From assembly GCA_026986775.1 (NCBI GenBank), contig JALSNX010000001.1, positions 1 to 64,000 of the forward strand: 64,000 nucleotides of DNA. The letters are read 5' to 3'. Shown piece by piece: positions 27,828 through 53,519 of this stretch (position 1 is its first letter; each line of letters starts with the position of its first letter). The translations under genes were made by a program, and so were the position numbers. Source of the DNA: Caldifarciminota bacterium (GTDB lineage Bacteria; Hydrothermota; Hydrothermia; UBA1063; CAJXJZ01). The notes beneath the pieces were generated by a model. It did no database searches. It saw nothing but the letters and a program-made list of their open reading frames with translations, and had not been told where the DNA came from.

Positions 27828-30677
27828 TCATCTATTCTTTATCATAAACAATTTTATAAAAGCTGGAAGTATAAATATTGTGTAAATAGTTGAAAAGGTT
27901 ATACCTCCTATAATCGCATGCGCGAATTTATACCATATTTCCTGGGGTTTATAGATTATCCAGAAAGGCGATGCTGTGGCAATAGTGGTAATACTCGTGT
28001 ATAGTATTGATCTGAATCTTGAAAGAGCAGCCATTTCAACTTCTTTATTTATTAAAAATTTCTTCACAAGAAAAATAGAATCATTTACCCCTATACCAAT
28101 AGTAACAAGTAAAGCAAGAATAGCATTTACATCAAAGGTTACTCTGTATATGTTAAAGAAAGAAAAAATCCCCAGAATAGTTACAGGTATAACGAAAATA
28201 ACCATCAACGAAGATACTATTTCATTAAACATAGATACAATGACCAATGTTATAAGCACACAGGTTACAATTACGCCGATTTTAAACTTTACTGTTTTGT
28301 TCACATGGCCAATAATAGGAGTAGAATCATAGTAAAATCCAGCAGGAAGAGGGTGCTCCTTCTCAAACCTTTCCAAAAAATCTTTAAGGGAATCAGATGG
28401 CCCCTGATAGGAAAAACCCAGAAGCATTTTGAAATACCTGTCTTTTCTTTCAATGGCACGTTTTTTGAATTCCTTATAAAATGGCATATTACGGTCTTTA
28501 AGAGTATAATACCCGACTTCGGGATTTTTAAAAATTACCGGCTCTTTCTGTCCGTAATTTATAATACTATTGAGCATAATTTTTCTATACCTTAAAAATC
28601 TATTTTTGGATGTAAGCCCCATTGGTGTGTAAAAAACAGGTATTTCCCCTCCATAATGAAAATCATAGATGGTAAGAGGGAAATATTCTCCTTTTTTTAA
28701 CTCCCGTGCAAGATACTTTACTTCCTTCTGAAGTTTTCTATAATTATATCCATAAAGTGTTAGAGCCAGCATAAATGGTCTTACACTTCCTTCCTGTATT
28801 ACAAAATCCCATGGAGCACCCCCATGCACTACTATATTTACACCTTTAAAATTAGAAAGCACACTCTCAAGGTAGGCTCTCAGATTACTACTCATACTTT
28901 CTATGACAGCATCTCTATTCATATAGATTTCCACAAGACTCCCATTTTCCGTGACATTCATGAGGTAATGTAATTTACAATTTACACAGGTATTTTTTTT
29001 GAACTCTTCTATCGCCCGAATAAGTGGAAATATTACATTTTTATACATTATTTTTGTTTCAACCTGGCCTTCCTCAGGTGTTATGTTGATGGTAATGGCA
29101 GCCCTTTTATCTTCTTTTAAAACAAGAATATCTTCCCTATTAAGTTTTCTATACAAAAATGGTATCATGGATATTGAAATGATATAAATACCGATAGGTA
29201 TGTGTGGCTTTTTGAGTATATACCTCAGTAAAAGCCTGTAAAACATCAATAAATGACCTTTCAATTTTCCTGATACCTCTCTCGCACTGCTTATTCTAAT
29301 AAAATAAAGTGGCAACACAAGGTAGGTCATAAACAAGGACATAATCAGCGCTAAAGAGAAAGATAGCATAAAATATCTGTACTTCAACCTTATATCAACA
29401 CTTGCATACAGAAATGGAATAAAGGCTAAAAGTGAAGTTAGAATGGACACCAGAAGGGGTCCAAATATATTAGATGATGATTCCAGAATGGCTCTTATTC
29501 TTTTTGTTTTCAAAATATTCTGAGAAAATTCTTCAAAAAACACAAGTGCACTGTCAACAAAAAGACCGAGACCAAAGACAAGACCAGAAATGGTAATAAC
29601 ATTAACCTGCATAGCCATTAAAAAGAAAAGGGATATTGTACACAGTAAAGAAAGAAGCGCAACAGAAATAATAAAAACACTCTCTTTCATACTGCCTTCA
29701 AAGGCAAAAAGCACCAGCATGAGAAAAAAGATTCCAACAACAAAAGAAAAAAGGATTTTTGTATATTCATGTTTTATCCTTTTCCCAACATCATATATGA
29801 CTACTGCTCTATTTGATGTCTTTTTCTCATAATCAGAAATCACTCTTCTTACCCTGCGAGAGACCGTTATTTTGTTTACATCACTGCGAAACCTTATTTT
29901 AAAGAGTACTGCAGGTCTGCCATCCACAATATACATTACATTTTTATATCCAGAACTGATTTTAAAGAGGTCCTTCAAGGCCACCCCTTTATAAAAAATG
30001 GAGTATAAACTCACAGGTCTTACACCTATCTGTAAAATTTCTCCACCATTGTGTATACTAAGCCTTTCACCATAAGCCTCAAGTTCCTTTGATATTGCAT
30101 TCAAATTTAAAGAAAGGTCACGCAGTTTGAAAAAACATGGAGTTAATGTGGTAAATTTATTTAAATAACCGAGAATCTCAACATCTCTTACTCCATCTAT
30201 AGTTCTCAATGTGTTTAATAAAATGTCTGCTTCATTCTTCCTGATATTTTCCATGTAAAATTCAAAATCGCGCCTTCTAACAGTTCCCTTTGTGTTGATA
30301 AATGGACCTGCGAAAAAATCAGGTAGTTCTGCATACTTAAGTGCATCAATGACCTTTACAGCAAACCTATCTGCTCTTTCGTCCTGCTTCAGGGTTACAT
30401 CAATTTTCAGCATATGTTCTGTTGTAACAGATTTTACAGATTTCACGCCTTTCATGGACCAGATGAAACCTTCAACATAAGGAGTGTACTTTTGTGCAAT
30501 ATACGATGGGTCCTGTTCTGTGTAAAAATACTCTATCTTAACATGCGGATACATAATCTCCGGATACAATCCCACAGGAATATGAAAAATCCCGTATATA
30601 GCAACAGAAATCATTATTAAAAGAAGACTTATTACCCTTATACCGTGTCTTAAAGAAAATTTAACGATGCTTCTCAT
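27828..30677 (-). CDS. RND family efflux transporter (second of pair)
   Basis: 949 aa; IPVGLYPEIMYPHVKI; TM blocks; LVTIGIGVNDSIFLVKKFL. Confidence 0.82.
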   Translation of the reverse strand: MRSIVKFSLRHGIRVISLLLIMISVAIYGIFHIPVGLYPEIMYPHVKIEYFYTEQDPSYIAQKYTPYVEGFIWSMKGVKSVKSVTTEHMLKIDVTLKQDERADRFAVKVIDALKYAELPDFFAGPFINTKGTVRRRDFEFYMENIRKNEADILLNTLRTIDGVRDVEILGYLNKFTTLTPCFFKLRDLSLNLNAISKELEAYGERLSIHNGGEILQIGVRPVSLYSIFYKGVALKDLFKISSGYKNVMYIVDGRPAVLFKIRFRSDVNKITVSRRVRRVISDYEKKTSNRAVVIYDVGKRIKHEYTKILFSFVVGIFFLMLVLFAFEGSMKESVFIISVALLSLLCTISLFFLMAMQVNVITISGLVFGLGLFVDSALVFFEEFSQNILKTKRIRAILESSSNIFGPLLVSILTSLLAFIPFLYASVDIRLKYRYFMLSFSLALIMSLFMTYLVLPLYFIRISSAREVSGKLKGHLLMFYRLLLRYILKKPHIPIGIYIISISMIPFLYRKLNREDILVLKEDKRAAITINITPEEGQVETKIMYKNVIFPLIRAIEEFKKNTCVNCKLHYLMNVTENGSLVEIYMNRDAVIESMSSNLRAYLESVLSNFKGVNIVVHGGAPWDFVIQEGSVRPFMLALTLYGYNYRKLQKEVKYLARELKKGEYFPLTIYDFHYGGEIPVFYTPMGLTSKNRFLRYRKIMLNSIINYGQKEPVIFKNPEVGYYTLKDRNMPFYKEFKKRAIERKDRYFKMLLGFSYQGPSDSLKDFLERFEKEHPLPAGFYYDSTPIIGHVNKTVKFKIGVIVTCVLITLVIVSMFNEIVSSLMVIFVIPVTILGIFSFFNIYRVTFDVNAILALLVTIGIGVNDSIFLVKKFLINKEVEMAALSRFRSILYTSITTIATASPFWIIYKPQEIWYKFAHAIIGGITFSTIYTIFILPAFIKLFMIKNR

Positions 30678-33336
30678 AAATACGCTTGAATATAGTATAA
30701 ATTTCAGGAATGATGGTCATTGAAGTAAAAGTGGAGAATAAAAGTCCAAGAATCAGGACAATGGCAAGACCATGCTGTAATCTGGCTCCTGCAGAATTAG
30801 ACAGTAAAAGCGGCAAAAGCCCCATTACCGTAGTAACTGTTGTAATCAGTATGGACCTTGTTCTTTTCTCTATGGCCTTATATATTGTAATTTCTCCTGT
30901 TAAAGGAATCGCTCTATTTATAAAGTCAAGAAGCACTATGGCATCATTTACGGAAATCCCCGAAAGGATTATTACACCTATTCCTGTGATTATATCAATG
31001 TCTTTATTAAATAAGGTGAAAACAATAGAGACAAAGAACAGGGATAATGGGACCTGCCACACAGCAACCTTTGCTATCTTCACAGACTCAAATACAGCAA
31101 CAATAGAAAAGAAAACGAGTAATACAGCAAATAAAAGAGCATGAAAAACGGTTTTTATGGTCTTTTTCTTTTCATATTCGGGCACATTGGAACCGGGCCA
31201 TATAGACCCTATAACTGGTTTATATTCTAAAGTGTCAATTGTTGCAATTTTTCCAAGACTGATGCCCATCCCATTTTTAACTGTAACCGGTAAAGACAAG
31301 AGTTCATCAAGTTGACGGAGGTTTACTCCAACAATACTTACCTTTACAGTGTCAATTATGCCAAGAGGTGTCCTGGATAATAATGACCTCAAATTACCAA
31401 TAATTTTCCACATGTCCAGATTATAAGCCCTCACTTTTTCGGGCAGAATGGAGACCCGGACAGTCTTCAAAGTTCTATTTTCATTTAATATAATTTTTTC
31501 TCCTTTAAGAGCCACAAGTGGATTTTTAAGGTCACTTATGGAAACGACCACATCAGGAAAACTTTTTAAAACAGTTGTCTTAAACTTTTCATAATCCTCA
31601 ATTCCATAAACATAAACCGTCCATTTTTTAAATCCATTATCTTCTTTTACAACCACACCATCATAGGTATCAAGGATTCTGGCTATTGTGCGGTCAATGT
31701 CTTCTGTCCTGAGATTAGAAAAATCTATTATCTTTAACCTCACGTTTTCACTTTCAGTATGTGGAAACATTCTGAATCTCAATTGTGTAAGTGAATATAT
31801 GCCAATAGCAATATACACAACAAGCCCGATTATTGTAATTGGTCTATTCTTATGCACAAGAGAAAACATACGTCCAAAGAAAAGCGCACTTAATTTAACG
31901 GATTTTTTTTCCACAGGTTTTATGTTAAATACGTAAGACAACATGGGCACCAGAGAAATGCTGATAAAAAGCGAAATAAGCGTGCTTACGATAACAACAA
32001 AAGCAAAGGGCATAAACAGCCTTCCTGCAATACCATAAATAAAGACAACAGGGATAAATACAACACAGTTTGTGAGCATGGAGGATACCACCGCACTCCT
32101 TACGCTACGGGTCCCAATTATCACTGCCGTTCTTCTATTTTTATACTGTGAAGAAGCATCCATAATACTCTCCATCACAATGACAGAGGCATCTATAAGC
32201 ATTCCGCTACTCATAATAAGAGCGCCAAGAGTAACAATATTTATAGAATATCCTGCAAGGTATATAAAGATGAAAGAAAAAAGAAGTGACAATGGCACAC
32301 TCATACCTATAACAATCCCTATTTTAAGGTCACCCAAAAATAAATACGAACTTAAAATAGAGAAGAGAACGCTGTATAAAAGCACAAAAAACAATGATTT
32401 TATTGTGTTTTTCAGGAACAAGGAGTTATCAAAGAGTATTTTATGTTTTACATTCAGATTTTCCAAAATACGGCGTATCTTTTTTGAAGCCCTTATGGGA
32501 GAGCCAGAAGAGGCAGGGTAAATAAAAACCGCAATATATTTTTTGTTATGATATATTACCTCCTCTCCTGGCTGTGATTCCCTTAAATTAAAATACTCTT
32601 TCAATGCTCTTTTATTTAAAGGAAGTAATAAAATGTCGTTAAAATTGCTAAGAGGTGGTTTTATTAAAAATGGATACTTAAAAGACCCATATTTCAGTGT
32701 TAAACTCAGCGGGTTTTTAAGTATGTTAAATTCGTGAACCAATCTATCTATAACCCTGCTATCTGTTATATAGGCCCATTTCTTTTTATATACAAGTTCA
32801 TATTCCGGATTATTGGCCCCAACAATTTGTATTCTTCCAACACCTTCTATACTTCCAAACTTAAAGACAAGGTCTTCTTTTACAAAATTCTTAAGAGATT
32901 CTGGAAATAAAATACCCATAAATGCCCTCTGTGAATTTGCTGTGCTCCTTATTTTTACATTTTCCACCATAAGAGAAAGGTATCTGTCCTTAGCCTCCTG
33001 TGCATTTATAGCTTCTTTGATTTTTAAATAGGCTACATCCATATCTGTATTCCATTTAAAGTGAAGCATAAATTGACAGTAGTCTGAACTCACTATTTTT
33101 CTAATATAGAGCAGTCCATCCAGGCTCTGGAAACCCTCAAGAAACCTATCAGCCACTTTTTCATTTATAAAGTCAACCGTATTGGGCTTTGTTTTTATCA
33201 GTATTTCATAGGAAGGATATGTAAAACCAGGAAAGAAACTAATCGGAAGGTAAAAAATGGAAACAATGGAAAGCAGAACAAGCATTAAAATAACGGATAC
33301 TACGGAAATTCTGTGTTCTAATATGTATCTGAGCAT
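30661..33336 (-). CDS. RND family efflux transporter (first of pair)
   Basis: 891 aa; LPISFFPGFTYPSYEI; GALIMSSGMLIDASVIVMESIMD; GVIILSGISVNDAIVLLDFINRA. Confidence 0.85.
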   Translation of the reverse strand: MLRYILEHRISVVSVILMLVLLSIVSIFYLPISFFPGFTYPSYEILIKTKPNTVDFINEKVADRFLEGFQSLDGLLYIRKIVSSDYCQFMLHFKWNTDMDVAYLKIKEAINAQEAKDRYLSLMVENVKIRSTANSQRAFMGILFPESLKNFVKEDLVFKFGSIEGVGRIQIVGANNPEYELVYKKKWAYITDSRVIDRLVHEFNILKNPLSLTLKYGSFKYPFLIKPPLSNFNDILLLPLNKRALKEYFNLRESQPGEEVIYHNKKYIAVFIYPASSGSPIRASKKIRRILENLNVKHKILFDNSLFLKNTIKSLFFVLLYSVLFSILSSYLFLGDLKIGIVIGMSVPLSLLFSFIFIYLAGYSINIVTLGALIMSSGMLIDASVIVMESIMDASSQYKNRRTAVIIGTRSVRSAVVSSMLTNCVVFIPVVFIYGIAGRLFMPFAFVVIVSTLISLFISISLVPMLSYVFNIKPVEKKSVKLSALFFGRMFSLVHKNRPITIIGLVVYIAIGIYSLTQLRFRMFPHTESENVRLKIIDFSNLRTEDIDRTIARILDTYDGVVVKEDNGFKKWTVYVYGIEDYEKFKTTVLKSFPDVVVSISDLKNPLVALKGEKIILNENRTLKTVRVSILPEKVRAYNLDMWKIIGNLRSLLSRTPLGIIDTVKVSIVGVNLRQLDELLSLPVTVKNGMGISLGKIATIDTLEYKPVIGSIWPGSNVPEYEKKKTIKTVFHALLFAVLLVFFSIVAVFESVKIAKVAVWQVPLSLFFVSIVFTLFNKDIDIITGIGVIILSGISVNDAIVLLDFINRAIPLTGEITIYKAIEKRTRSILITTVTTVMGLLPLLLSNSAGARLQHGLAIVLILGLLFSTFTSMTIIPEIYTIFKRIYEKHR

Positions 33337-34280
33337 ATTATTTTCTCACAACTTCCATTGTGTGAAGCAAAGGACACACCTTCTACAAGAATAGTGTCAT
33401 TTTCATTTAATCCATTCTTGATAAGGCTATAGTCTTCTCCGATAAAGGCAGGTTCTATGTATCTCCAGATAAGCGTGTTACCTGAAAGTTTGAAAACAAC
33501 ATATCTATCTTTATACTTTTTCAGGGATTTTGTGGGCACCTTTATACCGTATCCCTTCAAGACTATAAATTTTACTTTTACAAAATCCCCAATCTTGAAA
33601 ATACCATCTTTATCCGGAATTTTCACCACAGTATAGATTTCATTGTTTTCTTTGTCAAACTTAAAACCATCAATAAAACCTACCTCTTTTATGGTATCAA
33701 GTGTAACTTCCACCTTTTCTCCCCTGTAATAATTACGACTATATGCAGGAACCTCTACTTTCAAAATGTCAGATTCATACAAAGTAAAAACTTTATCCCC
33801 TTTATTAACATAATCACCACTTTTATATAAAGTCTCAACAAAGCCATCAAAAGGGGATTTGAAATTTGTGAGTTTCAACTTATTCTCTATCTTCTTTAAT
33901 TTTGCGAGGAGGTCATAGTATTCAGGCTTATAGATACCCCTGTCTAAAAATGGTTTTAAAGAAGCCAACTTTGCTTTAACAAAATTAAATTCATAGTAAA
34001 GTGCACTATCTCTTATATTTATGACCACATCTCCCTTCTTAACAACCCCATCGGCCATGTATTCTATCTTTCCACTCACAGGAGAGTGGTAATCAATCTT
34101 TCTATAAGGTTTCACAACTCCATAATACACGGGGCCCGTAAATACTGAATCACTATGAACCACAATAACATGACAGGTTAAACCCTTCCTCTTTTCAACA
34201 ACTTCTCTTTTGGTTTGAGATTTTTTGCAACCGAACATCAATATCACTGAAGCAAGACATAAAACCCCTATATTTTTCAT
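33318..34280 (-). CDS. RND periplasmic adaptor (HlyD/MFP-like) lipoprotein
   Basis: MKNIGVLCLASVILMFGC lipobox; YHSPVSGKIEYMADGVVKKGDVVINI; FKSPFDGFVETLYKSGDYVNKGDKVF. Confidence 0.82.
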   Translation of the reverse strand: MKNIGVLCLASVILMFGCKKSQTKREVVEKRKGLTCHVIVVHSDSVFTGPVYYGVVKPYRKIDYHSPVSGKIEYMADGVVKKGDVVINIRDSALYYEFNFVKAKLASLKPFLDRGIYKPEYYDLLAKLKKIENKLKLTNFKSPFDGFVETLYKSGDYVNKGDKVFTLYESDILKVEVPAYSRNYYRGEKVEVTLDTIKEVGFIDGFKFDKENNEIYTVVKIPDKDGIFKIGDFVKVKFIVLKGYGIKVPTKSLKKYKDRYVVFKLSGNTLIWRYIEPAFIGEDYSLIKNGLNENDTILVEGVSFASHNGSCEKIICSDTY

Positions 34281-35602
34281 GGAAATTCACTCCGTATTTT
34301 TTCAACTTTAAGGTATAGATCAAAAAGTTTCAAGGTAAAATCGTTATACATTTCAATATATTTTCTGATATTATTATAATTCCCAATTTCCCCGTTCCCT
34401 GTTAATATAAAAATAACCTTTTCTAATTCATAAATGGTTTCTCTATATTTTTTCAACTCATTTTTATAATTTTTGAGCAAATGGTTTCTTTTTTTATTGC
34501 GCAATAAAAGGTCTTTGCGAGCATTCAGCATCTTCAGTGAAAGTTCCTCTTCTGCCAGTTTTTCGCAACGCATACTGCCATACGGCAAAAAACTTAAAGT
34601 GACCCCTATATTAACGACAGAGGGAAAAAGATTCCTGTATTCCCCTTTACCTGTCATTACCCTCTCTCCGCCTATTTCAAACTCAAAAAGGGCACCGGGG
34701 CCTTTCTCAGAACAATCCATCAGGGTTCTGTAGTATTCAAGTAAAATTCTTAGCGAATCACTGATAAATTCTATATCTTTTTTATAAACTTTTGTCCATT
34801 TTAAAGAGTCTTCATAAGACACAGATAAAAAATCTTCTCTTATATCAAAAGTGTCTTTTATATCCAGCATGTCTTTGATGGTCTTATAACTTAAACTGTA
34901 ATTAAGGCTATCTTCAGCAAGTTCGTTTAAAACGGATAAATACAGTATTCTTGTATCAAAATATTTATCAGGCCCAATCAACTTCTTTTTCCATCCATCC
35001 TGGATAATACTGTAAATTTCAGTTATGCGGTTCATCAATCTGCTTGTGCGCTTGAGTTTCTCCCGATAAAGAAGATAGGAAAGCACATTCTTTTTAAACT
35101 CATAAAGATGTTCTTTTTTCTTTTTTAATAAAGTCCAGTAAGCATGCATTTTTTTAACATTATCAGCAAGAAATGAAATTTTATTTTTATCCGGTTTGAA
35201 AAATGCCTTTTTAATACCAATTCCTGCATAGAGGTTCCTCTGATGGGCAGGCAGGTAAACATTTGAGTTATATTGATTATCATAGCCCTCAACACGGGCA
35301 TTTAAATCGAACAAAGAAAAGAAGTGGTTCATGCTTAAATTAAACCCATACCTTGTATTACTGTTTTCAAGCAGAATAGGCATACTGTAGCCCGGAAAAA
35401 AGGTTATGTTTTTTGAATAATTTTTGACCGGTAAGTAAACATTAAAGTGTATTTCTGGATTTTCTTCGAATGTCATTTTCCTGAGAGCAATCTCTTTCTT
35501 AAACGTGTTCTTAAGTTTGTTTTCAAACATACTTATAAGTTGTTCATAAGAAAAGTGCTGAATATATGTGCCAAATATCAAAAGAAAAATAACTTTACTC
35601 AT
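34277..35602 (-). CDS. TolC-like outer membrane efflux protein
   Basis: signal peptide and long helical segments; position in RND operon. Confidence 0.6.
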   Translation of the reverse strand: MSKVIFLLIFGTYIQHFSYEQLISMFENKLKNTFKKEIALRKMTFEENPEIHFNVYLPVKNYSKNITFFPGYSMPILLENSNTRYGFNLSMNHFFSLFDLNARVEGYDNQYNSNVYLPAHQRNLYAGIGIKKAFFKPDKNKISFLADNVKKMHAYWTLLKKKKEHLYEFKKNVLSYLLYREKLKRTSRLMNRITEIYSIIQDGWKKKLIGPDKYFDTRILYLSVLNELAEDSLNYSLSYKTIKDMLDIKDTFDIREDFLSVSYEDSLKWTKVYKKDIEFISDSLRILLEYYRTLMDCSEKGPGALFEFEIGGERVMTGKGEYRNLFPSVVNIGVTLSFLPYGSMRCEKLAEEELSLKMLNARKDLLLRNKKRNHLLKNYKNELKKYRETIYELEKVIFILTGNGEIGNYNNIRKYIEMYNDFTLKLFDLYLKVEKIRSEFP

Positions 35603-37314
35603 TTTATAAGCTGTAATTCACAGAGTTTTTTATAAAAAACACTTTCATTGATCAGTGTCTCATGTCTGCCTTCGGCAATAATCCGGCCACTGTCAAGCAC
35701 AAAAATTTTATCCAATCTTGCAACAGTGGATATTCTGTGGGCTATAACAATAAGTGTTTTGTCCTTTACCAGTTCCATTGTAGCATCAAATATTTCCTTC
35801 TCAGTAATCGCGTCTATCTGTCCAAGTGCTTCATCAAAAATAAATATTTCTCCACCTTTTAAAAAAGCACGGGCAATGGAAAGCCTCTGTCTCTCCCCAC
35901 CTGATAATAAAAATTTAGCATCAGTAATTTCTGTGTAAATGCCCGAAGGTAAAAGACTTATATATTTGTAAAGTCCTGCTTTATTCAGTGCCTCTTCTAT
36001 TTCTTCATCAGTAGCATCTGGTTTAACAAGCACCATATTATCTCTTATTGTGCCGGGAAATATAAAATCCTCCTGTGGTATATAGGTTATAAAATCTCTG
36101 AGTTTTTTCAGGCTCACTTCCTTCAGTTCTCTATCCCCAAGGTATATATAGCCAGAATAATTCCTGTAAAATCCCAGAAGTATTTTTATAAGTGTAGATT
36201 TGCCCGCCCCACTTTTTCCAACTATACCTATCCTGGAACCAGCTTTAATGCACATATTTATTCCCTTTAAGACCATATTATTATCAGTATATCCAAATTC
36301 AAGGTTCACTATATTTATCTCAGAAGATGAAATTTCTCCTCCTTTACCAATATCTTCTGTCTTTAGATTTAAAATTTCTTTTATCCTGTTAAAAGCCGGA
36401 CGGGCTGTTTTTATGCTGACAAGCCCTGATACTATGACTGAAATACTTTGTGTTATCATTGAACTTAAATAAAGCAAAGCGAACATGGTTCCAACTGAAA
36501 TTGTATTGTAAGTAACATGAAGGTATCCCGCTCTCAAAAGCAACACAACGGTCATAAAAAGAGCGAGAATCACATTGAGATTATTGATAACAGACCTGAA
36601 GATACCCATCTTAATCTGTATTTTTATTGCACCATTTAAAATCTTTTTGAACATATCACTCAAATGAGTCTGCATATTATAAGCCCTGACAATGGGTAAA
36701 TTAAAAAGGGGCTCAAGCAGAGCTCCCATCACCTCAGATAATTTCCTGCGAAGAGTAAAGTTAAATTGTTCAACTATTCCTCCCCCGTAAAAAGATATAA
36801 GAATCATAATAATCACAAAAATTGCCGTGAAAACTACCGACATACTATCAAATCTCCCTATAATATACGTGGCTCCCAGAAGTATTACGAAATGTTTAAA
36901 TATATCCAGCAAACTATCCGGCAGAATTGAGGATATAGAGGGAATATCATGCGTTATTCTGCTAACATAATCGCCCAGTCGTCTTTTTGAATAGTCAAGT
37001 AGATTTATATTTAAAATCTTCTGAAAAAGTGAAATCTGCATATCTTTTATAAGATTCCTGCGATAAAAATTAATGAGAAAAGAGGAAAATACGGAAAATA
37101 TTCTGACAATCAAATTTAACAGAAGGAAAATTACAATAAAATGCAAAAAAATAGAGAAGTTCCTGTCAATATTAAGGCTCTCTATAGCCTTTTTTATAAT
37201 CAAACTTGAATACACATGGATTATACTGCTTACAAGTGAAATCAAGAATGCTATGGAGAATATGTGAAAATATCTTCGTGAATGTTTACCTATATATTGC
37301 AACATTGCCTTCAT
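35599..37314 (-). CDS. ABC transporter, fused permease/ATPase (type I exporter, no C39 peptidase)
   Basis: IGIVGKSGAGKSTLIKILLGFYRNYSG; FLLSGGERQRLSIARAFLKGGEIFIFDEAL; start refined to MKAMLQYIG. Confidence 0.88.
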   Translation of the reverse strand: MKAMLQYIGKHSRRYFHIFSIAFLISLVSSIIHVYSSLIIKKAIESLNIDRNFSIFLHFIVIFLLLNLIVRIFSVFSSFLINFYRRNLIKDMQISLFQKILNINLLDYSKRRLGDYVSRITHDIPSISSILPDSLLDIFKHFVILLGATYIIGRFDSMSVVFTAIFVIIMILISFYGGGIVEQFNFTLRRKLSEVMGALLEPLFNLPIVRAYNMQTHLSDMFKKILNGAIKIQIKMGIFRSVINNLNVILALFMTVVLLLRAGYLHVTYNTISVGTMFALLYLSSMITQSISVIVSGLVSIKTARPAFNRIKEILNLKTEDIGKGGEISSSEINIVNLEFGYTDNNMVLKGINMCIKAGSRIGIVGKSGAGKSTLIKILLGFYRNYSGYIYLGDRELKEVSLKKLRDFITYIPQEDFIFPGTIRDNMVLVKPDATDEEIEEALNKAGLYKYISLLPSGIYTEITDAKFLLSGGERQRLSIARAFLKGGEIFIFDEALGQIDAITEKEIFDATMELVKDKTLIVIAHRISTVARLDKIFVLDSGRIIAEGRHETLINESVFYKKLCELQLIK

Positions 37315-37321
37315 ATTGGCC

Positions 37322-37483
37322 TCATTCCACTTTACAATCAATAGCAACCATTACACCATCCATATATCCTGCAAGTAGAGACTCTGTGATTCGACAACCA
37401 TAGGATGTAGTGCAATCGCAGATGGTCTTCTCCTCCCCACCACCCTCTATAGGAGTTATTAAAACTATCATATTGCTTTCCAT
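37322..37483 (-). CDS. small Cys-rich peptide 2, putative RiPP precursor or accessory peptide
   Basis: hand translation MESNMIVLITPIEGGGEEKTICDCTTSYGCRITESLLAGYMDGVMVAIDCKVE; AAGGGAGA SD-like; overlaps stop of upstream ORF (37468) and abuts ABC start (37314); shares CxC...C-x8-GYxxG with peptide 1. Confidence 0.65.
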   Translation of the reverse strand: MESNMIVLITPIEGGGEEKTICDCTTSYGCRITESLLAGYMDGVMVAIDCKVE

Positions 37484-38310
37484 ATCTCTATCTCCCTTTT
37501 TGCATTCCTGAAATTAAACCTTACAAAGTAAAGGGATTTTCCTTTTATCATCACAGGATAAACGGGTGTATCAAATTTAAATACTTTATCTATACCCATT
37601 ATCCTACCATTTTTAGTTTTTAAAAGAAAAATCGCGGTTTCTGGTGTCTTTTGATCTGATGGTTTGTTTGACACAGACCTGTAATAAAATCCCCAGGCAA
37701 CCATATTGGTATTTTCACCTCTAAAAGAGGAAATGCCCACTATTCCTCCCTTCAGAAACTTTCCTCTACCCGATTCAGCTATACCATAAGAGGGTAAATA
37801 CCTTTTCAGGGAATCCAATAATATTGTCCTTCTCTTTCTTGATAAAATATCATAATAAAGCGCCCTGAAATGAGAAGGTGAAATAAGATAAAACCCTATG
37901 TAAGAAGGCGTTATACTCAGATAATCTCCTTTAAAATATAAGGTATCAATTTTTTGAGATAAAAGCCATAGTAAATAGACTGTATCCCGAGTTAAGAAAG
38001 CGACCCAATTACCACCTGCAGTAACATCAAGAATATGGCGTTTATCAAGTAACCGGTTATTATTGAGATAAACACCATCATGTCTTAAATAAAAATAAAA
38101 AGTATCAATCACGAAAAATAGTCCGCGCATTTTTATGGGTTTCACAGTATCAACAATCACAGAGTCGCTTTCATATTCAATCTTAAGAACATAGTCTGAT
38201 GTAATAAAATAAGAATTGTCATTTGCAAAATACCACCTTTTGACGGTATTAAACATCCCAATATCCAGTTTTACATTGAATGTAAGTAATGTAAATAAAA
38301 GCATTTTCAT
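37468..38310 (-). CDS. hypothetical protein, possible beta-rich/propeller
   Basis: 280-aa ORF within a tightly packed operon; no motif recognised. Confidence 0.55.
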   Translation of the reverse strand: MKMLLFTLLTFNVKLDIGMFNTVKRWYFANDNSYFITSDYVLKIEYESDSVIVDTVKPIKMRGLFFVIDTFYFYLRHDGVYLNNNRLLDKRHILDVTAGGNWVAFLTRDTVYLLWLLSQKIDTLYFKGDYLSITPSYIGFYLISPSHFRALYYDILSRKRRTILLDSLKRYLPSYGIAESGRGKFLKGGIVGISSFRGENTNMVAWGFYYRSVSNKPSDQKTPETAIFLLKTKNGRIMGIDKVFKFDTPVYPVMIKGKSLYFVRFNFRNAKREIEIWKAI

Positions 38311-38312
38311 AT

Positions 38313-39221
38313 CTACTTTATCCCAAGATCAAAAGGAGATATTTTTACCAATTCATGACCTTCATTCGTGATATAAAACATGTTTTCATCTGGCTCATAT
38401 TTCAGCAATCTGGCAGAGCGCGGGAATCTTATAACTTTTTTAATTTTCAAACTATTCCTATCCACTAAAACCAATACGTTCTTTTCTTCCTTTTTAAGGT
38501 CTCTTCTCTGAAGAATATAATAGTTTTTATATGTTAAAATTCCGGCATATGATGATACAGGATAGAAAGCTATGCTTCTGCCCCTTTCTTTTCTCATAAC
38601 CTCTGCTCTTAAGTCCCTTGCTTTTTTTATGTGAAAAAGAGACAAAAATTTCCCATTTTTAAGAGAAAAGGTCAAAAGAATCATTTTTCTTGCTTCAAAA
38701 AATATCGCTGTATCATTATGAGATGTTGCAATCCACATATCAGAAGGTGAAAAATCTTTGTATTCAACTTCTTTTCTCGTAATCTTCTTATCATTGAGTG
38801 ATATGTGAACTATATATCCCTGACCCAAAAGTAAAAGATATCCATTTTCTCCACTCATGGTATAAGGTGATTCCTTTAAAAGAAACTGGCCAAGATACTT
38901 ACCCATGAAGTTGTAATAGTTGATTTTCTTTGCAATTTTTTCATATATATATATTATCGTGTCGCTGCAAACGAGGGAATTGGTTCCAAAAAATGAGATT
39001 TCCTCAGGTGCATTCCCCAGTGGTATGTAACCGGAATCCACATCGGAAGTTGCCATATTGTATCTATATAGTATTGCGTTTTTAGAGCCAACTGGCATTG
39101 AAAGAAAGACAATACTTTTATTACATGATGCTGTGTAAGAATAAGTGGGTAATGAATATCCAACTTTTACCTCTCCCTTAAGAGAAATAATCAGAAGAAT
39201 AAAGACAAAAGACTTAACCAT
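38313..39221 (-). CDS. 6-bladed beta-propeller-like secreted protein
   Basis: signal peptide MVKSFVFILLIISLKG; repeated YNxxG/GxFL and KYEPDENMFYITNEGHELVKI patterns; start refined from ORF end 39260. Confidence 0.5.
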   Translation of the reverse strand: MVKSFVFILLIISLKGEVKVGYSLPTYSYTASCNKSIVFLSMPVGSKNAILYRYNMATSDVDSGYIPLGNAPEEISFFGTNSLVCSDTIIYIYEKIAKKINYYNFMGKYLGQFLLKESPYTMSGENGYLLLLGQGYIVHISLNDKKITRKEVEYKDFSPSDMWIATSHNDTAIFFEARKMILLTFSLKNGKFLSLFHIKKARDLRAEVMRKERGRSIAFYPVSSYAGILTYKNYYILQRRDLKKEEKNVLVLVDRNSLKIKKVIRFPRSARLLKYEPDENMFYITNEGHELVKISPFDLGIK

Positions 39222-40689
39222 CCTGCCTGCCTCCTTTTCCTGCAATATAGGATAAATCAAAGAATCCGGGATTAATTTCCTTCACTTTTGCGTAAACACC
39301 AAGCAGTTTTTCCCAGTATTTCATCTTTGATTTACAGGTTCTTCTAAATAAATCTTCCCGTAATTTTTCATTTCTATATATATGAGCATAACATATATTA
39401 CAAAGCCTTGCTATTGGACAGTCAAGACAATTTTTATTACGCAGGCTTTCTACTTCTTGAACTATTTCATTAATTCTGTCAAAATTAAATCCGTTAAATA
39501 TATCTCCTATTTTTAAGTGGTAATGAACTTTCTCACACGGGTATATACTTCCATCAGGTGCTATAAATGTCCTGTCATGTCCAGGGATACAGAAACCCCC
39601 TATCAGAAATTCCTCTGAGAGTCTGCCCTTTGGACTATTGTGGTAAATAAAAAGGTCTTTGTATAAGAATTGATACAGAAAATCATCAACGATACCATCT
39701 GGAATATCCTCTTTAAGTGTTTTATTTACAAGTTCTTCAATCTGTCTATCAAATTCCTCAATTTCCTCCTTCGTGAAATTTTTATAAAAATCAGTATCAT
39801 ATGGGTCAACCAGAGAAACAAAAACAGGAGCGTGTGTTTTGCATTCCCACAAGTTAATAAAACGAGAGATTGATTTTAAATCAAATGGAGGCGCAAGTGT
39901 TATAATATATCCCACCTTTCTTTCAAAATAGTCTGGAAATTCTTCCTTGAATTTGCATAAATTTCTTTTTATTAACTGGAATGTGGGCTTCTGAGCTCTT
40001 GTGACCCTGTATCTGTCGTGTATTGATTGAGGGCCATCTATGCTAACATTTAAACTGAAATTATGCTCTTTAAGAAATCTACGAATTTTACCATTTGCAA
40101 GTAATGTGCCATTGGTAGTAAGAGAGAATCTAATGGGTTTATCCCTGAAAAGGTTTTCGGCCAAGTTGACCGCATACCTTATATTGTCAAAAGCAAGCAA
40201 AGGCTCTCCTCCATAAAATCCAAGAGAGACACGTTCGCTGAGTCCTGAATGGGATTTAAAAAACAAAAGAGCCTTTTCTATAATCTTTTTGTCCATATAA
40301 ACACCAGTATTCACCCTTTCCCCTTCATAAATCCCGGAAAACTTACAGTATTTACAGGCGAGGTTACAATCCCATGTTATATCCAGAATCATATGAGAGA
40401 GTTTATTTTCCAGATGCTCTCTGATTTCTGTAGGGGAATGGGGAAATGCTGCTCTTTTAAAATAAGGTCTTTTTAGACTGAAGAGTCCAATTTTTCTGTT
40501 ATACTCATCTATTTCCTTTAATGCAAGTTTAATCTTTTCCACAGGATAACTGGATGTCAATTCTTTTATAATGTCATCATCACTTTTACCCTGTATACGA
40601 TAATGCAATATGTCCCTTACTACCTCTGGGACTTTTACTATCATATTTGTCAGGGGAGAATATATATAATCACCTTCCAGAAATAGCAT
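39214..40689 (-). CDS. radical SAM/SPASM peptide maturase with N-terminal PqqD/RRE-like segment
   Basis: LDITWDCNLACKYCKFSG (CxxxCxxC), FYGGEPLLAF, FSLTTNGTLL, SIDGPQSIHD; SPASM PDGSIYPCEKV...NKNCLDCPIARLCNICYAH...RRTCKS; start refined to ATG after GGAGGTG SD. Confidence 0.9.
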   Translation of the reverse strand: MLFLEGDYIYSPLTNMIVKVPEVVRDILHYRIQGKSDDDIIKELTSSYPVEKIKLALKEIDEYNRKIGLFSLKRPYFKRAAFPHSPTEIREHLENKLSHMILDITWDCNLACKYCKFSGIYEGERVNTGVYMDKKIIEKALLFFKSHSGLSERVSLGFYGGEPLLAFDNIRYAVNLAENLFRDKPIRFSLTTNGTLLANGKIRRFLKEHNFSLNVSIDGPQSIHDRYRVTRAQKPTFQLIKRNLCKFKEEFPDYFERKVGYIITLAPPFDLKSISRFINLWECKTHAPVFVSLVDPYDTDFYKNFTKEEIEEFDRQIEELVNKTLKEDIPDGIVDDFLYQFLYKDLFIYHNSPKGRLSEEFLIGGFCIPGHDRTFIAPDGSIYPCEKVHYHLKIGDIFNGFNFDRINEIVQEVESLRNKNCLDCPIARLCNICYAHIYRNEKLREDLFRRTCKSKMKYWEKLLGVYAKVKEINPGFFDLSYIAGKGGRQDG

Positions 40690-40703: not shown

Positions 40704-40740
40704 AAAGCACATGGGGTTCCAAAGGAACCCCATGTGCTTT
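40704..40740. repeat. perfect 17-bp hairpin between precursor peptide and maturase genes
   Basis: AAAGCACATGGGGTTCC-AAA-GGAACCCCATGTGCTTT; no U-tract on the transcribed (minus) strand. Confidence 0.85.
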
Positions 40741-40746
40741 CAATTT

Positions 40747-40893
40747 TTATCTATCCAATGTTCCATCTGCCAGGCCATTAGCATATCCCATCATATAGTC
40801 CCAGTCAGTTTGACAGTTGGGAGAGTAGCATGCGCATACACATGCTTTTGGTGGGATATCACTGGTGAGCATATTTGTTATTATGTTTATCAT
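40747..40893 (-). CDS. small Cys-rich peptide 1, putative RiPP precursor
   Basis: hand translation MINIITNMLTSDIPPKACVCACYSPNCQTDWDYMMGYANGLADGTLDR; GGAGGTG SD; immediately upstream of rSAM/SPASM gene; downstream of consensus promoter. Confidence 0.82.
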   Translation of the reverse strand: MINIITNMLTSDIPPKACVCACYSPNCQTDWDYMMGYANGLADGTLDR

Positions 40894-40917: not shown

Positions 40918-40935
40918 CATCACCTCGAGGTGATG
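40918..40935. promoter_or_regulatory. 18-bp perfect palindrome in 5' UTR
   Basis: CATCACCTCGAGGTGATG, 5 nt downstream of the -10. Confidence 0.8.
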
Positions 40936-40940
40936 TTGAT

Positions 40941-40971
40941 ATTATACAGGGGGGGGGGGATGTTTTGTCAA
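40941..40971 (-). promoter_or_regulatory. poly-C spacer promoter P1 (island 1), spacer 19 bp with C11
   Basis: minus strand TTGACA (40971-40966) AAACAT C11 TG TATAAT (40946-40941). Confidence 0.85.
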
Positions 40972-48294: not shown

Positions 48295-48323
48295 TTGACA
48301 AAACATCCCCCCCCCTGTATAAT
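48295..48323 (+). promoter_or_regulatory. poly-C spacer promoter P2 (island 2), spacer 17 bp with C9
   Basis: TTGACA 48295-48300, AAACAT C9 TG, TATAAT 48318-48323. Confidence 0.88.
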
Positions 48324-48331
48324 ACCTATAC

Positions 48332-48343
48332 CACCCCGGGGTG
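48332..48343. promoter_or_regulatory. 12-bp palindrome CACCCCGGGGTG in 5' UTR
   Basis: same position relative to -10 as CACCTCGAGGTG in P1; core differs by a paired T-A to C-G change. Confidence 0.75.
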
Positions 48344-48370
48344 AAACGGAAAACAAAAAGGAGGTGTATC

Positions 48371-49225
48371 ATGCTAAAAAACAGGACTGATCATATCATC
48401 ATTGGTGCTTGTGGGCATGCTTGCATGTAATCACATTAAGTCTTTAAGTACTGATTATGCTGAGAGTGATACTGTATATTTCAGGGTTGGTCTCCCTTTT
48501 ATACACGGGTCAACAAGAGAAATGACTCATTATTTTCCATTTGGCGAACAAAATTTTGAAAATTTAGACACATTAAAAATCCATATAGAAGACATCAACG
48601 TTTTGAATAACAGGGTCAAGACACTAAAATCAGGTGAAATGTGCATACAATTGATTTTGAAGTAAATTCTAAAATTGTTCATGTGGTTTATACCAAACAA
48701 ACTTTTGGCGACACTGTATGCGCTGAAATGAGATATATGGACTCTCTGCAGAATCTGGATTGGAACATATCCGTTTATGTTTGGTATGAGAAAGGTCTTC
48801 CCCATGAGAAGGGCATAATAATTCTAAATGGTCAAAAAGCAACAGAGTTACATTTTGAAGCCAATATGATCGATACACAAAATATGATACTCAAATACCA
48901 ATTTCCTTATTACAATTATACAGCTCTTGACACTATAGAAATCTTCAATGTTCAGAATCCACAAATAACTGAGAGATTGTATGAGTTTTGCAGTTCTCAC
49001 AGTGAATCTATTAATTATTTGAAAAAAGTAGATCCTTATGTAATAGATTATGTGGTCAATGACATGATTAAAAATGCCTCAAGCTCAAAAAGAATTAGTT
49101 CTAAATGGTTAAGCTGGGCTGGTGGCGTAATCACCGGTATCGCAACGGGGTATATAGTAGGTCCAGTGGCAGGTACAATCGCAGGCGCAGTTTATGGGGC
49201 AATAAACACATATGTGAATCAATAA
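48371..49225 (+). pseudogene. frameshifted lipoprotein with glycine-zipper C-terminus
   Basis: SD-linked ATG at 48371 reads MLKNRTDHIIIGACGHACM* in its own frame. One A fewer in the A6 tract would give MLKTGLIISSLVLVGMLAC, joining ORF 48402-48665. One A more near 48637-48639 would join that ORF to ORF 48641-49225 (KSGENVHTIDFEV...). Confidence 0.65.
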
Positions 49226-49244
49226 ATAAAAATAAGGAGGAGAT

Positions 49245-49748
49245 ATGGTAAACACAGCAATTATGCTGTTATCCATTCCACTAATTAGTGGTGGAATTTA
49301 TATAACTTACAGGAAACTAAACAAATTTGAGAATATTCTGAACCTGATTGGAAGTGTGCTGGGCGGCACACTGCTCGTCCTTTTTGCATTCTGGAGTTTG
49401 CATATAAAGGACCTTCAGAACAGGGCGTTGATTGTGTCTTTTGTAATGTTCCTCAGCAGTATGTGGGCTCTGGGTGTAATATCTCAGCTGACAGAGAAAA
49501 AATTGAAATTACAAGCAGTAGAGGTAATTCTTTCGGTTGCTTATATCCCAGCATTTCTAATAATTGATAGCACGTGGATGTCAATGCTTGGAAGCGCCCT
49601 TTCAGTGAGTATATTCCTTTTTTTCGCTGGGGTTATGGATATTCTCCAACCTGCTTTTAAATCAAAAAACATGGGGATTTTGAAGGGAGTTTTCTGGATA
49701 TGGTTTTTCATTCTCGGGATAATATTTACTCAGGCTCTTAAGCCTTAG
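49245..49748 (+). CDS. small multi-TM membrane protein
   Basis: 167 aa, about five hydrophobic helices; AAGGAGGAG SD. Confidence 0.7.
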   Translation: MVNTAIMLLSIPLISGGIYITYRKLNKFENILNLIGSVLGGTLLVLFAFWSLHIKDLQNRALIVSFVMFLSSMWALGVISQLTEKKLKLQAVEVILSVAYIPAFLIIDSTWMSMLGSALSVSIFLFFAGVMDILQPAFKSKNMGILKGVFWIWFFILGIIFTQALKP

Positions 49749-49892: not shown

Positions 49893-51554
49893 GTGGTGGA
49901 AAAAAACAATGAAAATTTTCTAAAAGTATTCTACAAAAAGTATATCCTTACTAAAAAACATTTGATTTTGTTATTATCAATTTTAGTGTTTTCCCTTATT
50001 TCTTCAATACTACAGATTCTAATCCCCTATTTTTTAAAAGGGATTATGGATTTTGCAATCGCTGGAAAAAAGAATTTAATGTATAATGCCATCTGGTTAT
50101 TTGGAATAGCCTGGATTTTGGCAGTGATTTCGGCTTATATATATGGTTATTGTATGGAAATAATTAAAGTTGATATAAAAGGAGTTTTAAGAAAAAATCT
50201 TTTAAGAAAATTACATACATTGCTGTATTCGGAGGTGAATAAACACACACAGGGTGCCTATTTACAGATAATACTTGATGATGTAGACAAAATAGACCCT
50301 CTTATTATAGATTCATATCTAAACTTGGGAACCATGGGATTCATGGCACTTGGTGCATTGATATTAATGATTAAGATGTCATGGATTCTGACAATCGTGA
50401 GCGTGCTTCCAGTGCCATTGTATATGGTGTTAATGGTAATATACCAAAAGAAAGCAATCTCACTTACCCAAAAAAGGCAGAGAGACTATCAAAATGTAAT
50501 TGCATTTATTGACGAAAGTATAGGAAATACATATATAGTTAGAAATTTTGGGATATTGCACCAGATACTTGACTTATTCACAACTTTTTATAATAAATAT
50601 GTAAAAAGTTACATGGACCTTTTCAGGGTTAACTTCTTTTATAGTTCGGTTTTAAACACCTTTCTTTCAATAGGTGTGCAATTTTTTATCATTTTATTTG
50701 GAGCAATCCTGATTCTAAAAGGTAAACTGACGGCAGGAATTGTTTTGAGTTTTATGATATATGTTGAGTATGTAAGACAACCTCTGGATTATATTTTAAG
50801 ATTCTCAACCCAGGTAGAGCCCGCAAAAGTATCCCTTAAAAGGATATTTCAAATTCTAAATAGAGAAAGCGTTTATGAACCCAAAACACACTCACTATCT
50901 TATTTAAAACGTCTTCCATCCGATGTTCCCGCTGTAGAAATTAAGAATCTTTACTTTTCTTATGAAAATCATCCGGTGATAAATAATTTAAGCCTTACGC
51001 TGAAGCAGGGGAAATGGCTTTGTATTATCGGCGAAAGTGGAAGGGGTAAGAGCACTCTCTTAAATATTCTCTTAAAGCACTACAGTGTACCTGACGGGAA
51101 AGTTTTCCTATTGGGAGAAGATATAAATAAAATGGAAGTAAATGATATTCTGAGTTTAATAACATTGATTGAGCAGGAACCCCAATTTTTTAGCAGTATG
51201 AGCATTTATGAAAACCTCACTTTGGGACAGGATATACCATGGGAAAAAGTGGAAGAAATAGCCGCAAAAATAGGACTAAAAAATCTGCTAAATAAAATTT
51301 CCAAAAATAGAAAAATATTACTCAAAAATTCGGGTCTATCCGGCGGCGAAAAAAAACGACTCTCCCTTTTACGGGGTATGCTGCGTAATACCCCTATCGT
51401 TATTATAGATGAGCCAACAGCCTTTCTGGATAAAGACAATGCTATTAGAATTATGTCAAAATTAAAGGAATTCTTGAAAGGTAAAACAGTGATTATAACA
51501 ACCCACGATGAGAAAATTCTGAAATTGTGTGACGAAAAAATCTTTATTGAATAG
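49893..51554 (+). CDS. ABC transporter, fused permease/ATPase (no C39 domain)
   Basis: GKWLCIIGESGRGKSTLLNILLKHYS; SGLSGGEKKRLSLLRGMLRNTPIVIIDEPTAFLD. Confidence 0.88.
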   Translation: MVEKNNENFLKVFYKKYILTKKHLILLLSILVFSLISSILQILIPYFLKGIMDFAIAGKKNLMYNAIWLFGIAWILAVISAYIYGYCMEIIKVDIKGVLRKNLLRKLHTLLYSEVNKHTQGAYLQIILDDVDKIDPLIIDSYLNLGTMGFMALGALILMIKMSWILTIVSVLPVPLYMVLMVIYQKKAISLTQKRQRDYQNVIAFIDESIGNTYIVRNFGILHQILDLFTTFYNKYVKSYMDLFRVNFFYSSVLNTFLSIGVQFFIILFGAILILKGKLTAGIVLSFMIYVEYVRQPLDYILRFSTQVEPAKVSLKRIFQILNRESVYEPKTHSLSYLKRLPSDVPAVEIKNLYFSYENHPVINNLSLTLKQGKWLCIIGESGRGKSTLLNILLKHYSVPDGKVFLLGEDINKMEVNDILSLITLIEQEPQFFSSMSIYENLTLGQDIPWEKVEEIAAKIGLKNLLNKISKNRKILLKNSGLSGGEKKRLSLLRGMLRNTPIVIIDEPTAFLDKDNAIRIMSKLKEFLKGKTVIITTHDEKILKLCDEKIFIE

Positions 51555-51572
51555 TAAAAACAGGAGGTGATA

Positions 51573-53519
51573 ATGTTTGTCACTATTATTGTATCCATGC
51601 TGCTTCAACCTGCGAAGATAAAATCTCCTGCTGATATATACATGGTAAAAAATCAAGTAAAACTTGTTGAAATAATGCCGGATACTTCATCTTCACCAAA
51701 GGATTCAACTCTTGTATCGGCAGGCTATACAAAAAAAGAACTTGTGTTTTATTTTAAGAACTATCAGAAGGGCGCTCTCAGTGCTACCATAAAAAAGCGC
51801 GATGCAGAGGAAATCAGTCAGGGAGAAGATGCGGTGTTTATCATACTTGCACCAAATGGTAAAGGTAGAAACGCATATTATATTGTAGTTAATCCTCTGG
51901 GCACTGTATATGACAAAATGCTTACCCAACAGGGAATTGTTGAATGGGATGGAGATATACGAACAAAGGCAAATAAAACCGCCTATGGATGGGAATGCAC
52001 TGTGGAAATTCCCTTTTCAAGTATTACATACTCAGAAGATTCCTGGGGTATCCAGATACTGAGAAATATTATATCTAATTCCGAACTCCAGGCACTTTAC
52101 ATGTCAAATAATGTAGGCTCTTTATACGACCTTGCTGATTTTAAAATAGACTTTAATTACATTGAAAAACGCACAAATGTTGCGCTTTTTATGATACCTT
52201 CCATTAGAGTTGAAAGGATATATGACAGCGCCCGGACACACTGGGATAATAAGGTGAAATTAGGTGGGACCATGAGATTTAAAAAAGGGAACAATACGGT
52301 AATGGATATCACAGGACTTCCCGATTACTCGGAGCTTCCTCTTGACTTTAAAAGGTTTTCCCTGGGCAGATTGCCCATTTCCTACCCTGAAAAGAGGCCG
52401 TTTTTTATAGAGGGAAGGGGATATTATAAATTGCCCAAACTTCTTGTAAGGACAAGGAACATAGAAAACATTGAATACGGTGGAAAATTCTACACAGCAG
52501 GGAAATCCAGCGATTTTGTAATGTATTATCTAAAAGACACTATTCTGAACGACATAATATTCAGCAGGTTTAAGTATCATCTTTCCGATGTATCGGAGTT
52601 GGGGGCCTTCAGTATGCTTAACAGGTTGAATTATAATGTAGTTTCATTTGATGCCTCACACACTATCAAAAAATACGGTATTGACCTTTCTGCACAATGG
52701 GCATCTATTCTGAATACTGATGCACAACTTAAATACTTCAAAATAAACAAAAATGCAAACACCGGTATTTCAGGGTCTTTTTCCTACACTGATATTGACA
52801 CGGGCTTTATATCTCCTCTAAATACCGTTGAATACAATTTTGAGGGCATCAGGAAGTTCGCCTTGAATGCACAGTTCCTTAAATACTTTAAATTGAAAGA
52901 GAGGAATATTATTTTCAATGTTTCTGGATATACAAATCACTTAATCAATAAATTTGACAGGTCCATCATTCACAGGGTTTACAGCGGAAATATGACGACC
53001 TACTTGCTGCCTTACGGTGTCGCTTTACTCCTTGAGGAGGGAGAGTTAAATTATCTTTCTTTGCCAGACAGGTCTTACAGACTGGCCGGTGGAGGATTAA
53101 TTTACTATCTCTCTTCATGGAAACAGGCACGTCTTACAGTATTATATGGCAATTATCTCGGTGGACATCTCTTCAATCCAGAGTTTACTGCAAACATCTC
53201 CCCATTTGGTTTTAATACTGGAATGGATGTTTTCTTTGTAAAAAGCCCCTTTGACAGCCTTTATACGATTAATTTTTACGGAGAACACCCTACACCTTTA
53301 AAACACTTTTTGATAAAGCCCTCTCTTATTTATACCAACAATTTACTTTTAGGTCAGAAAGATATTGACATGAATATTGTTCTTCTGTATGAACCTGATT
53401 ATCTTAAGGGCATCTACCTTGCATATCAAAGAACCATGAGAAAAACCGGAAATTCTTCATGGTCATTATCTTCTGGAAAAATCATCTTTAAAATTAAATG
53501 GGGACTAAAGATTCTGTGA
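51573..53519 (+). CDS. DUF5916-like outer-membrane protein with CBM9-like N-terminal domain
   Basis: EDAVFIILAPNGKGRNAYYIVVNPLGTVYD...WECTVEIPFSSITYSEDSWGIQILRN; C-terminal beta-rich region; ATG at 51573 after AGGAGG. Confidence 0.65.
   Translation: MFVTIIVSMLLQPAKIKSPADIYMVKNQVKLVEIMPDTSSSPKDSTLVSAGYTKKELVFYFKNYQKGALSATIKKRDAEEISQGEDAVFIILAPNGKGRNAYYIVVNPLGTVYDKMLTQQGIVEWDGDIRTKANKTAYGWECTVEIPFSSITYSEDSWGIQILRNIISNSELQALYMSNNVGSLYDLADFKIDFNYIEKRTNVALFMIPSIRVERIYDSARTHWDNKVKLGGTMRFKKGNNTVMDITGLPDYSELPLDFKRFSLGRLPISYPEKRPFFIEGRGYYKLPKLLVRTRNIENIEYGGKFYTAGKSSDFVMYYLKDTILNDIIFSRFKYHLSDVSELGAFSMLNRLNYNVVSFDASHTIKKYGIDLSAQWASILNTDAQLKYFKINKNANTGISGSFSYTDIDTGFISPLNTVEYNFEGIRKFALNAQFLKYFKLKERNIIFNVSGYTNHLINKFDRSIIHRVYSGNMTTYLLPYGVALLLEEGELNYLSLPDRSYRLAGGGLIYYLSSWKQARLTVLYGNYLGGHLFNPEFTANISPFGFNTGMDVFFVKSPFDSLYTINFYGEHPTPLKHFLIKPSLIYTNNLLLGQKDIDMNIVLLYEPDYLKGIYLAYQRTMRKTGNSSWSLSSGKIIFKIKWGLKIL

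Follow-up and report, generated by a model that had tools for sequence, protein, structure and literature searches.

Several described systems come close to the locus reported here. In the CcpM/CLI_3235 type (TIGR04068), to which SacP23 of Paenibacillus polymyxa belongs (PMC10731318), a small Cys-rich precursor is accompanied by an RRE-rSAM-SPASM maturase and an ABC exporter. The SCIFF maturase CteB (PDB 5wgg/5why) combines an RRE fold with a radical SAM domain and a SPASM domain harboring two auxiliary clusters. The thioether synthases PapB, of the ranthipeptide freyrasin (PMC9413430), and RumMC, of the sactipeptide ruminococcin C (PMC8188230), have the same RRE-rSAM-SPASM architecture and Cys-containing precursors. 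As regards promoters, the fim2, fim3 and fimX genes of Bordetella provide an experimental precedent, since one-base changes in their C-stretch promoters alter transcription (PMC1891110, PMC10172299).

The locus shares features with each of them. It lies in a stretch of 64,000 nucleotides, called the window hereafter. Comparison of genome sequences shows two conserved, putative Cys-rich precursors under purifying selection, with a maturase of the RRE-rSAM-SPASM type next to them; an ABC exporter is also present, and the promoter module is one that nearly all RiPP-type cassettes of the genome have. The two peptides, pep1 and pep2, are very probably the precursor forms of a peptide made by ribosomes and modified by a radical SAM enzyme, a judgement that covers the whole explanation given below, including its inferred steps.

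The precursors, their maturase and the operon

The original prediction was that of a 48-aa peptide with four Cys and a strong Shine-Dalgarno (SD) sequence, and exactly this ORF is found at 40747-40893 on the minus strand, with an ATG start, a TAA stop, the SD AAGGAGG and 4 Cys in the encoded product. Homologs of pep1 occur in three other genomes among the 148 of the phylum that were searched, namely G002, of the same genus (78% identity, E 5e-21), G007, of the same order (62%, E 7.6e-15), and G035, of the same class (56%, E 1.2e-9). The alignment has 21 invariant columns, 3 Cys among them, the first Cys being replaced by Trp in G035, and comparison with the G002 copy (dN 0.144, dS 1.366) indicates purifying selection. 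Judged by its homologs in three genomes and by this selection, the 48-aa ORF is real and conserved, and more than a product of chance. The peptide had been proposed as a candidate new RiPP precursor, its family unrecognised, and it matches no family in NCBIfam or Pfam, loose thresholds included (NCBIfam up to E 10), so that the novelty holds against these libraries.

The apparent operon runs in the order pep1, maturase, propeller 1, protein 2, pep2, ABC exporter, outer-membrane efflux protein (OEP), periplasmic adaptor (MFP) and two RND transporters, and the final five genes form a chain of end-to-end overlaps. Its features in the window are:

40941 to 40971, minus strand: promoter, with TTGACA (40971-40966), a 19-nt spacer containing C11 (40949-40959) and TATAAT (40946-40941)
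40919 to 40934: perfect 16-bp palindrome ATCACCTCGAGGTGAT at about +1, whose core CACC-N4-GGTG is common across the regulon
40747 to 40893, minus strand: pep1, predicted 48-aa RiPP precursor, CxC-x4-C followed by C-x4-D-Y-x2-G-Y-x2-G-x-A-D-G
40704 to 40740, minus strand: intercistronic hairpin between pep1 and the maturase gene, conserved in position and not in sequence
39214 to 40689, minus strand: predicted RRE, radical SAM and SPASM peptide maturase; the nearest NCBIfam model is TIGR04068 (CcpM), below cut-off
38313 to 39221, minus strand: secreted beta-propeller-like protein 1, with homologs in G002 (46% identity) and, as a fragment, in G035 (24%)
37468 to 38310, minus strand: second propeller-like or secreted protein, with a homolog in G002 and no match in Pfam
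37322 to 37483, minus strand: pep2, predicted 53-aa precursor, CxC-x5-C-x8-G-Y-M-D-G; its G002 homolog MENTLIQVITSPENKEPQDAACNCSFYYGCRIKGALLEGYMDGIMAVMPDSSNG has the same position
35599 to 37314, minus strand: ABC exporter, in which Pfam finds no C39 peptidase domain
34277 to 35602, minus strand: OEP
33318 to 34280, minus strand: periplasmic adaptor of the HlyD/RND_mfp type
30661 to 33336, minus strand: RND transporter (ACR_tran), overlapping the upstream gene
27828 to 30677, minus strand: RND transporter (ACR_tran), overlapping the upstream gene

The claim that the peptide directly precedes a SPASM maturase is borne out by a gap of 57 nt between the pep1 stop and the maturase ATG (40689). A missing counterpart in relatives would have spoken against the claim; G002 and G035 both have pep1 upstream of the orthologous maturase (maturase identity 67 and 45%). 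The G002 operon is split between two contigs, one ending with pep1 and the N-terminus of the maturase and the other holding the remaining genes.

In the maturase, Pfam recognizes radical SAM and SPASM domains, and the ten Cys expected for them are invariant among four relatives. The PqqD/RRE-like N-terminal segment that had been proposed is backed by profile and by fold. The best profile match in the PDB is CteB (5wgg, E 4e-48), starting in the RRE, and the model of the N-terminal 90 residues (pLDDT 86) has three strands and three helices, for which Foldseek returns CteB on top, followed by lasso-peptide RREs complexed with leaders (probabilities 0.94-1.00, with modest E of 0.003-0.35). The best NCBIfam model is CcpM, with 271.1 bits against a curated cut-off of 500, and the next ones, lachnocin, RumMC and PapB, are all well under their own cut-offs (for the PapB ranthipeptide model NF047865, 151 bits against 340); the SCIFF maturase model TIGR03974 gives 128.6 bits against 425. 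Since every model scores below its cut-off, the maturase belongs to no curated family, though it would work like the CcpM/RumMC/PapB group. A maturase search of genome contigs gave one distant match only, in a Lachnospiraceae locus (27% identity, E 2e-17), and the genes of more distant maturase relatives in the phylum often adjoin a Cys-rich small ORF. With a conserved short precursor ORF beside a tailoring enzyme that carries an RRE, the locus is, to judge from its genes, a RiPP system (radical SAM type) of the broad thioether-maturase group, outside every curated family. From the nearest maturase families we infer that thioether cross-links from the Cys of pep1 are the candidate chemistry.

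The second peptide, pep2, which like the genome-wide recurrence of the promoter is absent from the original prediction, aligns with pep1 across C-x8-G-Y-x-x-G. It lies between the propeller-like gene and the ABC exporter in both its own genome and G002, and its ORF overlaps the end of the upstream gene (37468..38310). The AF2 model of propeller 1 (pLDDT 76) matches propellers of the YncE/BtuG type in Foldseek, with a TM of about 0.5. No leader protease was found within the operon, and no subtilase or TIGR04066/TIGR04069 partner is seen in it. The RND genes may have a functional share in the RiPP system. DUF5916-like membrane or outer-membrane proteins recur beside SPASM maturase/ABC pairs at other loci (L020, L023, L026, L054, L125 and L129), where they are likely an export or immunity partner; the one in the window (51567-53519) adjoins only the ABC gene at 49893.

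The proposed mechanism is that the short N-terminal leader of pep1 docks on the RRE of the maturase, which would then join the cysteines of CxC-x4-C to nearby residues via thioethers, with a loss of about 2 Da per link. The modified peptide could exit via the ABC transporter, possibly with the OEP, MFP and RND proteins, and the periplasmic propeller proteins may bind it or protect the cell.

It could be argued that the conserved peptide is an unmodified metal-binding or redox peptide and that the radical SAM enzyme acts on pep2 or on another substrate. CxC motifs can bind metals, and in G007 pep1 occurs with no close maturase, both SPASM genes of that genome being on other contigs and not close relatives. 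This explanation is nevertheless very unlikely, given that pep1 directly precedes orthologous maturases in its own genome (G000), G002 and G035, and that nine more SPASM genes of its genome likewise follow directly on a short peptide ORF. A different question is whether the maturase makes another linkage, e.g., an ether, a C–C cyclophane or an epimerisation, as SPASM membership does not fix the chemistry and the NCBIfam relatives include non-thioether enzymes. The best models, however, are maturases of thioether or Cys-rich peptides (CcpM at 271 bits, lachnocin, RumMC, PapB) and three Cys are invariant, so that a non-thioether product appears rather improbable and thioethers are the preferred reading.

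The poly-C promoter module

The peptide had been given a consensus promoter of its own. Both hexamers, TTGACA and TATAAT, are indeed perfect, but the spacer is not of the usual length, having 19 nt instead of 17 and holding 11 consecutive C. The palindrome about +1, which is followed by AAAAAGGAGG, could be a 5'-terminal mRNA hairpin or an operator. The hairpin between pep1 and the maturase gene has 17 bp (-31 kcal/mol, z -6.6), and hairpins past the pep1 stop are kept in all four genomes with unrelated sequences (z -4.9, -4.8 and -5.3 in G002, G007 and G035). The 5' and intercistronic hairpins may bracket and stabilise the precursor mRNA, which would yield more precursor than enzyme. In G035 the pep1 promoter has neither the poly-C tract nor the palindrome, and in G007 a very similar palindrome element is kept and the long C tract is absent. 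The orphan pep1 homolog of G007 (L053 8645-8788) has, besides this 5'UTR palindrome, a downstream hairpin and no maturase nearby.

The pattern TTGACA...C7+...TAWAMT is found 15 times in the own genome (reversed-pattern control, 0), 6, 4 and 2 times in three congeners, and is rare elsewhere. All nine C tracts of at least nine in the 2.18-Mb genome sit in -35/-10 spacers; eight of them pair TTGACA with TATAAT or TATACT as the -10, and the -35 of the ninth (TGAAAATC(n)...TATAAT) is cut off by the start of its contig. Promoters with perfect hexamers number 69, of which 15 have a C7+ spacer. Eight of the 15 poly-C promoters stand directly before SPASM genes (hypergeometric P 2.5e-16, on the assumption of 1900 genes and ignoring an 8.3-kb duplication).

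Seen from the enzymes, 9 of the 11 SPASM genes of the genome are under this promoter type, one of them with an interrupted tract, and a short peptide lies in between except at the degenerate C27:152k, where the promoter runs straight into a broken maturase. The complete peptide and SPASM cassettes with poly-C are C1:39k (pep1), C1:200k, C4:175k, C4:193k, C10:13k, C18:56k and C22:87k. The interrupted C tract is that of C18:19.9k, whose 33-nt 5'UTR core is identical to that of pep1. The tenth SPASM gene (C9:120k, L187) has a 19-T spacer instead of poly-C and a 32-aa peptide, and at the eleventh (C4:4k) a transposase-like gene lies upstream of a 38-aa peptide. C4:193k is an 8.3-kb duplicate of C4:175k, 99.7% identical, i.e., a recent duplication of a whole cassette (L125 6064-14336 and L126 5320-13593); its precursor MWGKIDIINASGQSVITGIPGGHFDHHADGHADMHADASVK is His/Asp-rich without Cys, which suggests a different chemistry.

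At C2:27.6k (L191 2652-9556), a copy of the module whose tract is interrupted precedes a class III lanthipeptide cluster containing LanKC, an ABC transporter and an outer-membrane beta-barrel. LanKC, of 880 aa, scores 717 bits against a curated cut-off of 575, and the 43-aa precursor MDRLLSLQQLNPNNNTIQGEAGKSSMSWAFCSTLSMACTPPDK, at 20.1 against 22, falls just short of the class III models. The module is thus not confined to one biosynthetic class. Outside the RiPP cassettes, it stands before genes for lipoproteins and other secreted proteins, and for membrane proteins. Pep1 is one of about a dozen putative RiPP precursors in the genome, nearly all under a poly-C promoter, which points to a peptide arsenal under joint control and perhaps with random switching.

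The window contains a second copy:

48295 to 48364, plus strand: poly-C module with TTGACA, C9 in a spacer of 17, TATAAT, CACCCCGGGGTG and AAAAAGGAGG

It lies upstream of a lipoprotein-like ORF, an ABC gene (49893-51554) and the DUF5916-like gene (51567-53519), with no radical SAM gene among them. Within 48295-49748 (plus strand), the promoter with its optimal 17-nt spacer is upstream of a lipoprotein gene that looks frameshifted and of a small membrane protein. The ORF at 48369 (MLKNRTDHIIIGACGHACM) was considered as a precursor and rejected, because a lipoprotein signal is encoded in the overlapping +1 frame and a frameshift seems to affect the locus. The ORF at 48641-49225 ends in a Gly-zipper-like stretch (49105-49225, plus strand), WLSWAGGVITGIATGYIVGPVAGTIAGAVYGAINTYVNQ, which resembles the tails of pore-forming bacteriocins.

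Possible phase variation or operator control

The C tract lies in the core promoter, as in phase-variable homopolymer promoters of the fim/porA type, and its place between two perfect hexamers gives the layout of a promoter controlled by slippage. A design like that of the Bordetella fim C-stretch promoters makes phase-variable RiPP expression the leading idea. The poly-C tract would set the -35/-10 spacing, and slippage may render expression phase-variable, so that cells vary in the RiPPs they make. In that sense, the pep1 promoter has C11 with a spacer of 19 against C9 and 15 in its ortholog, and the C18:56k cassette has C11 and 18 against C8 and 14 in G002, all in draft assemblies, whose homopolymer lengths are not reliable; among paralogous promoters, identical flanks surround tracts that differ by two C. 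The dispersion of poly-C spacer lengths is not significantly greater than that of other promoters (P = 0.10), and, since draft assemblies are weak on homopolymer length, phase variation is only a hypothesis here. That slipping spacers create clonal mosaics making different RiPP subsets, from about a dozen cassettes of at least two classes, is accordingly put forward tentatively, with a likelihood somewhat short of even.

The module could also be a regulon element without phase variation, its palindrome CACC-N4-GGTG, and perhaps its C tract, serving as the binding site of a regulator by which all RiPP operons would be induced together. Most module promoters have the palindrome about +1, and G007 keeps its very similar element despite having no long C tract. 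Against this, the palindrome centres vary, one has an AAAA loop, and no gene for such a regulator was found. Furthermore, in the C1:200k and C18:56k cassettes (L124 and L128) the 5'UTR is instead perfectly complementary, for 12 and 15 nt, to the region beyond the precursor stop, which 0 of 500 shuffles reproduced; the precursor ORF would thereby be held within a single RNA stem. These two cases favour an RNA role, and for this reason the hypothesis of a single operator was downgraded; co-induction through the palindrome is regarded as a doubtful, if sizeable, possibility, and phase variation is kept as the leading idea.

Comparison with known systems

The maturase falls far from the CcpM/CLI_3235 type in score (271 bits against 500), the precursor is outside the NCBIfam families, and two precursors, propellers and RND genes are present here. 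Unlike SCIFF, pep1 has 4 Cys and not six in forty-five, and TIGR03974 gives 129 bits against 425. As compared with PapB and RumMC, the repeated Cx3D motif is absent, the conserved Asp being at C-x4-D, and both cut-offs are far from reached. What is new is a precursor family unmatched in NCBIfam and Pfam, with two precursors per operon.

Like Bordetella fim2, fim3 and fimX (PMC1891110, PMC10172299), the genome has poly-C of variable length in the promoters of several related genes with surface or secreted functions; unlike them, the tract lies here between perfect -35 and -10 hexamers, and its targets are mainly RiPP cassettes. A literature search, which most subscription journals lay outside, found no paper joining phase variation with radical SAM RiPPs. 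The promoter and 5'UTR are recognisable and common to almost every RiPP cassette of the genome, and so provide a DNA signature for finding precursors of unrelated sequence, and the common poly-C tract makes RiPP phase variation directly testable. What most deserves follow-up is this promoter, possibly phase-variable, which a RiPP repertoire of more than one class has in common.
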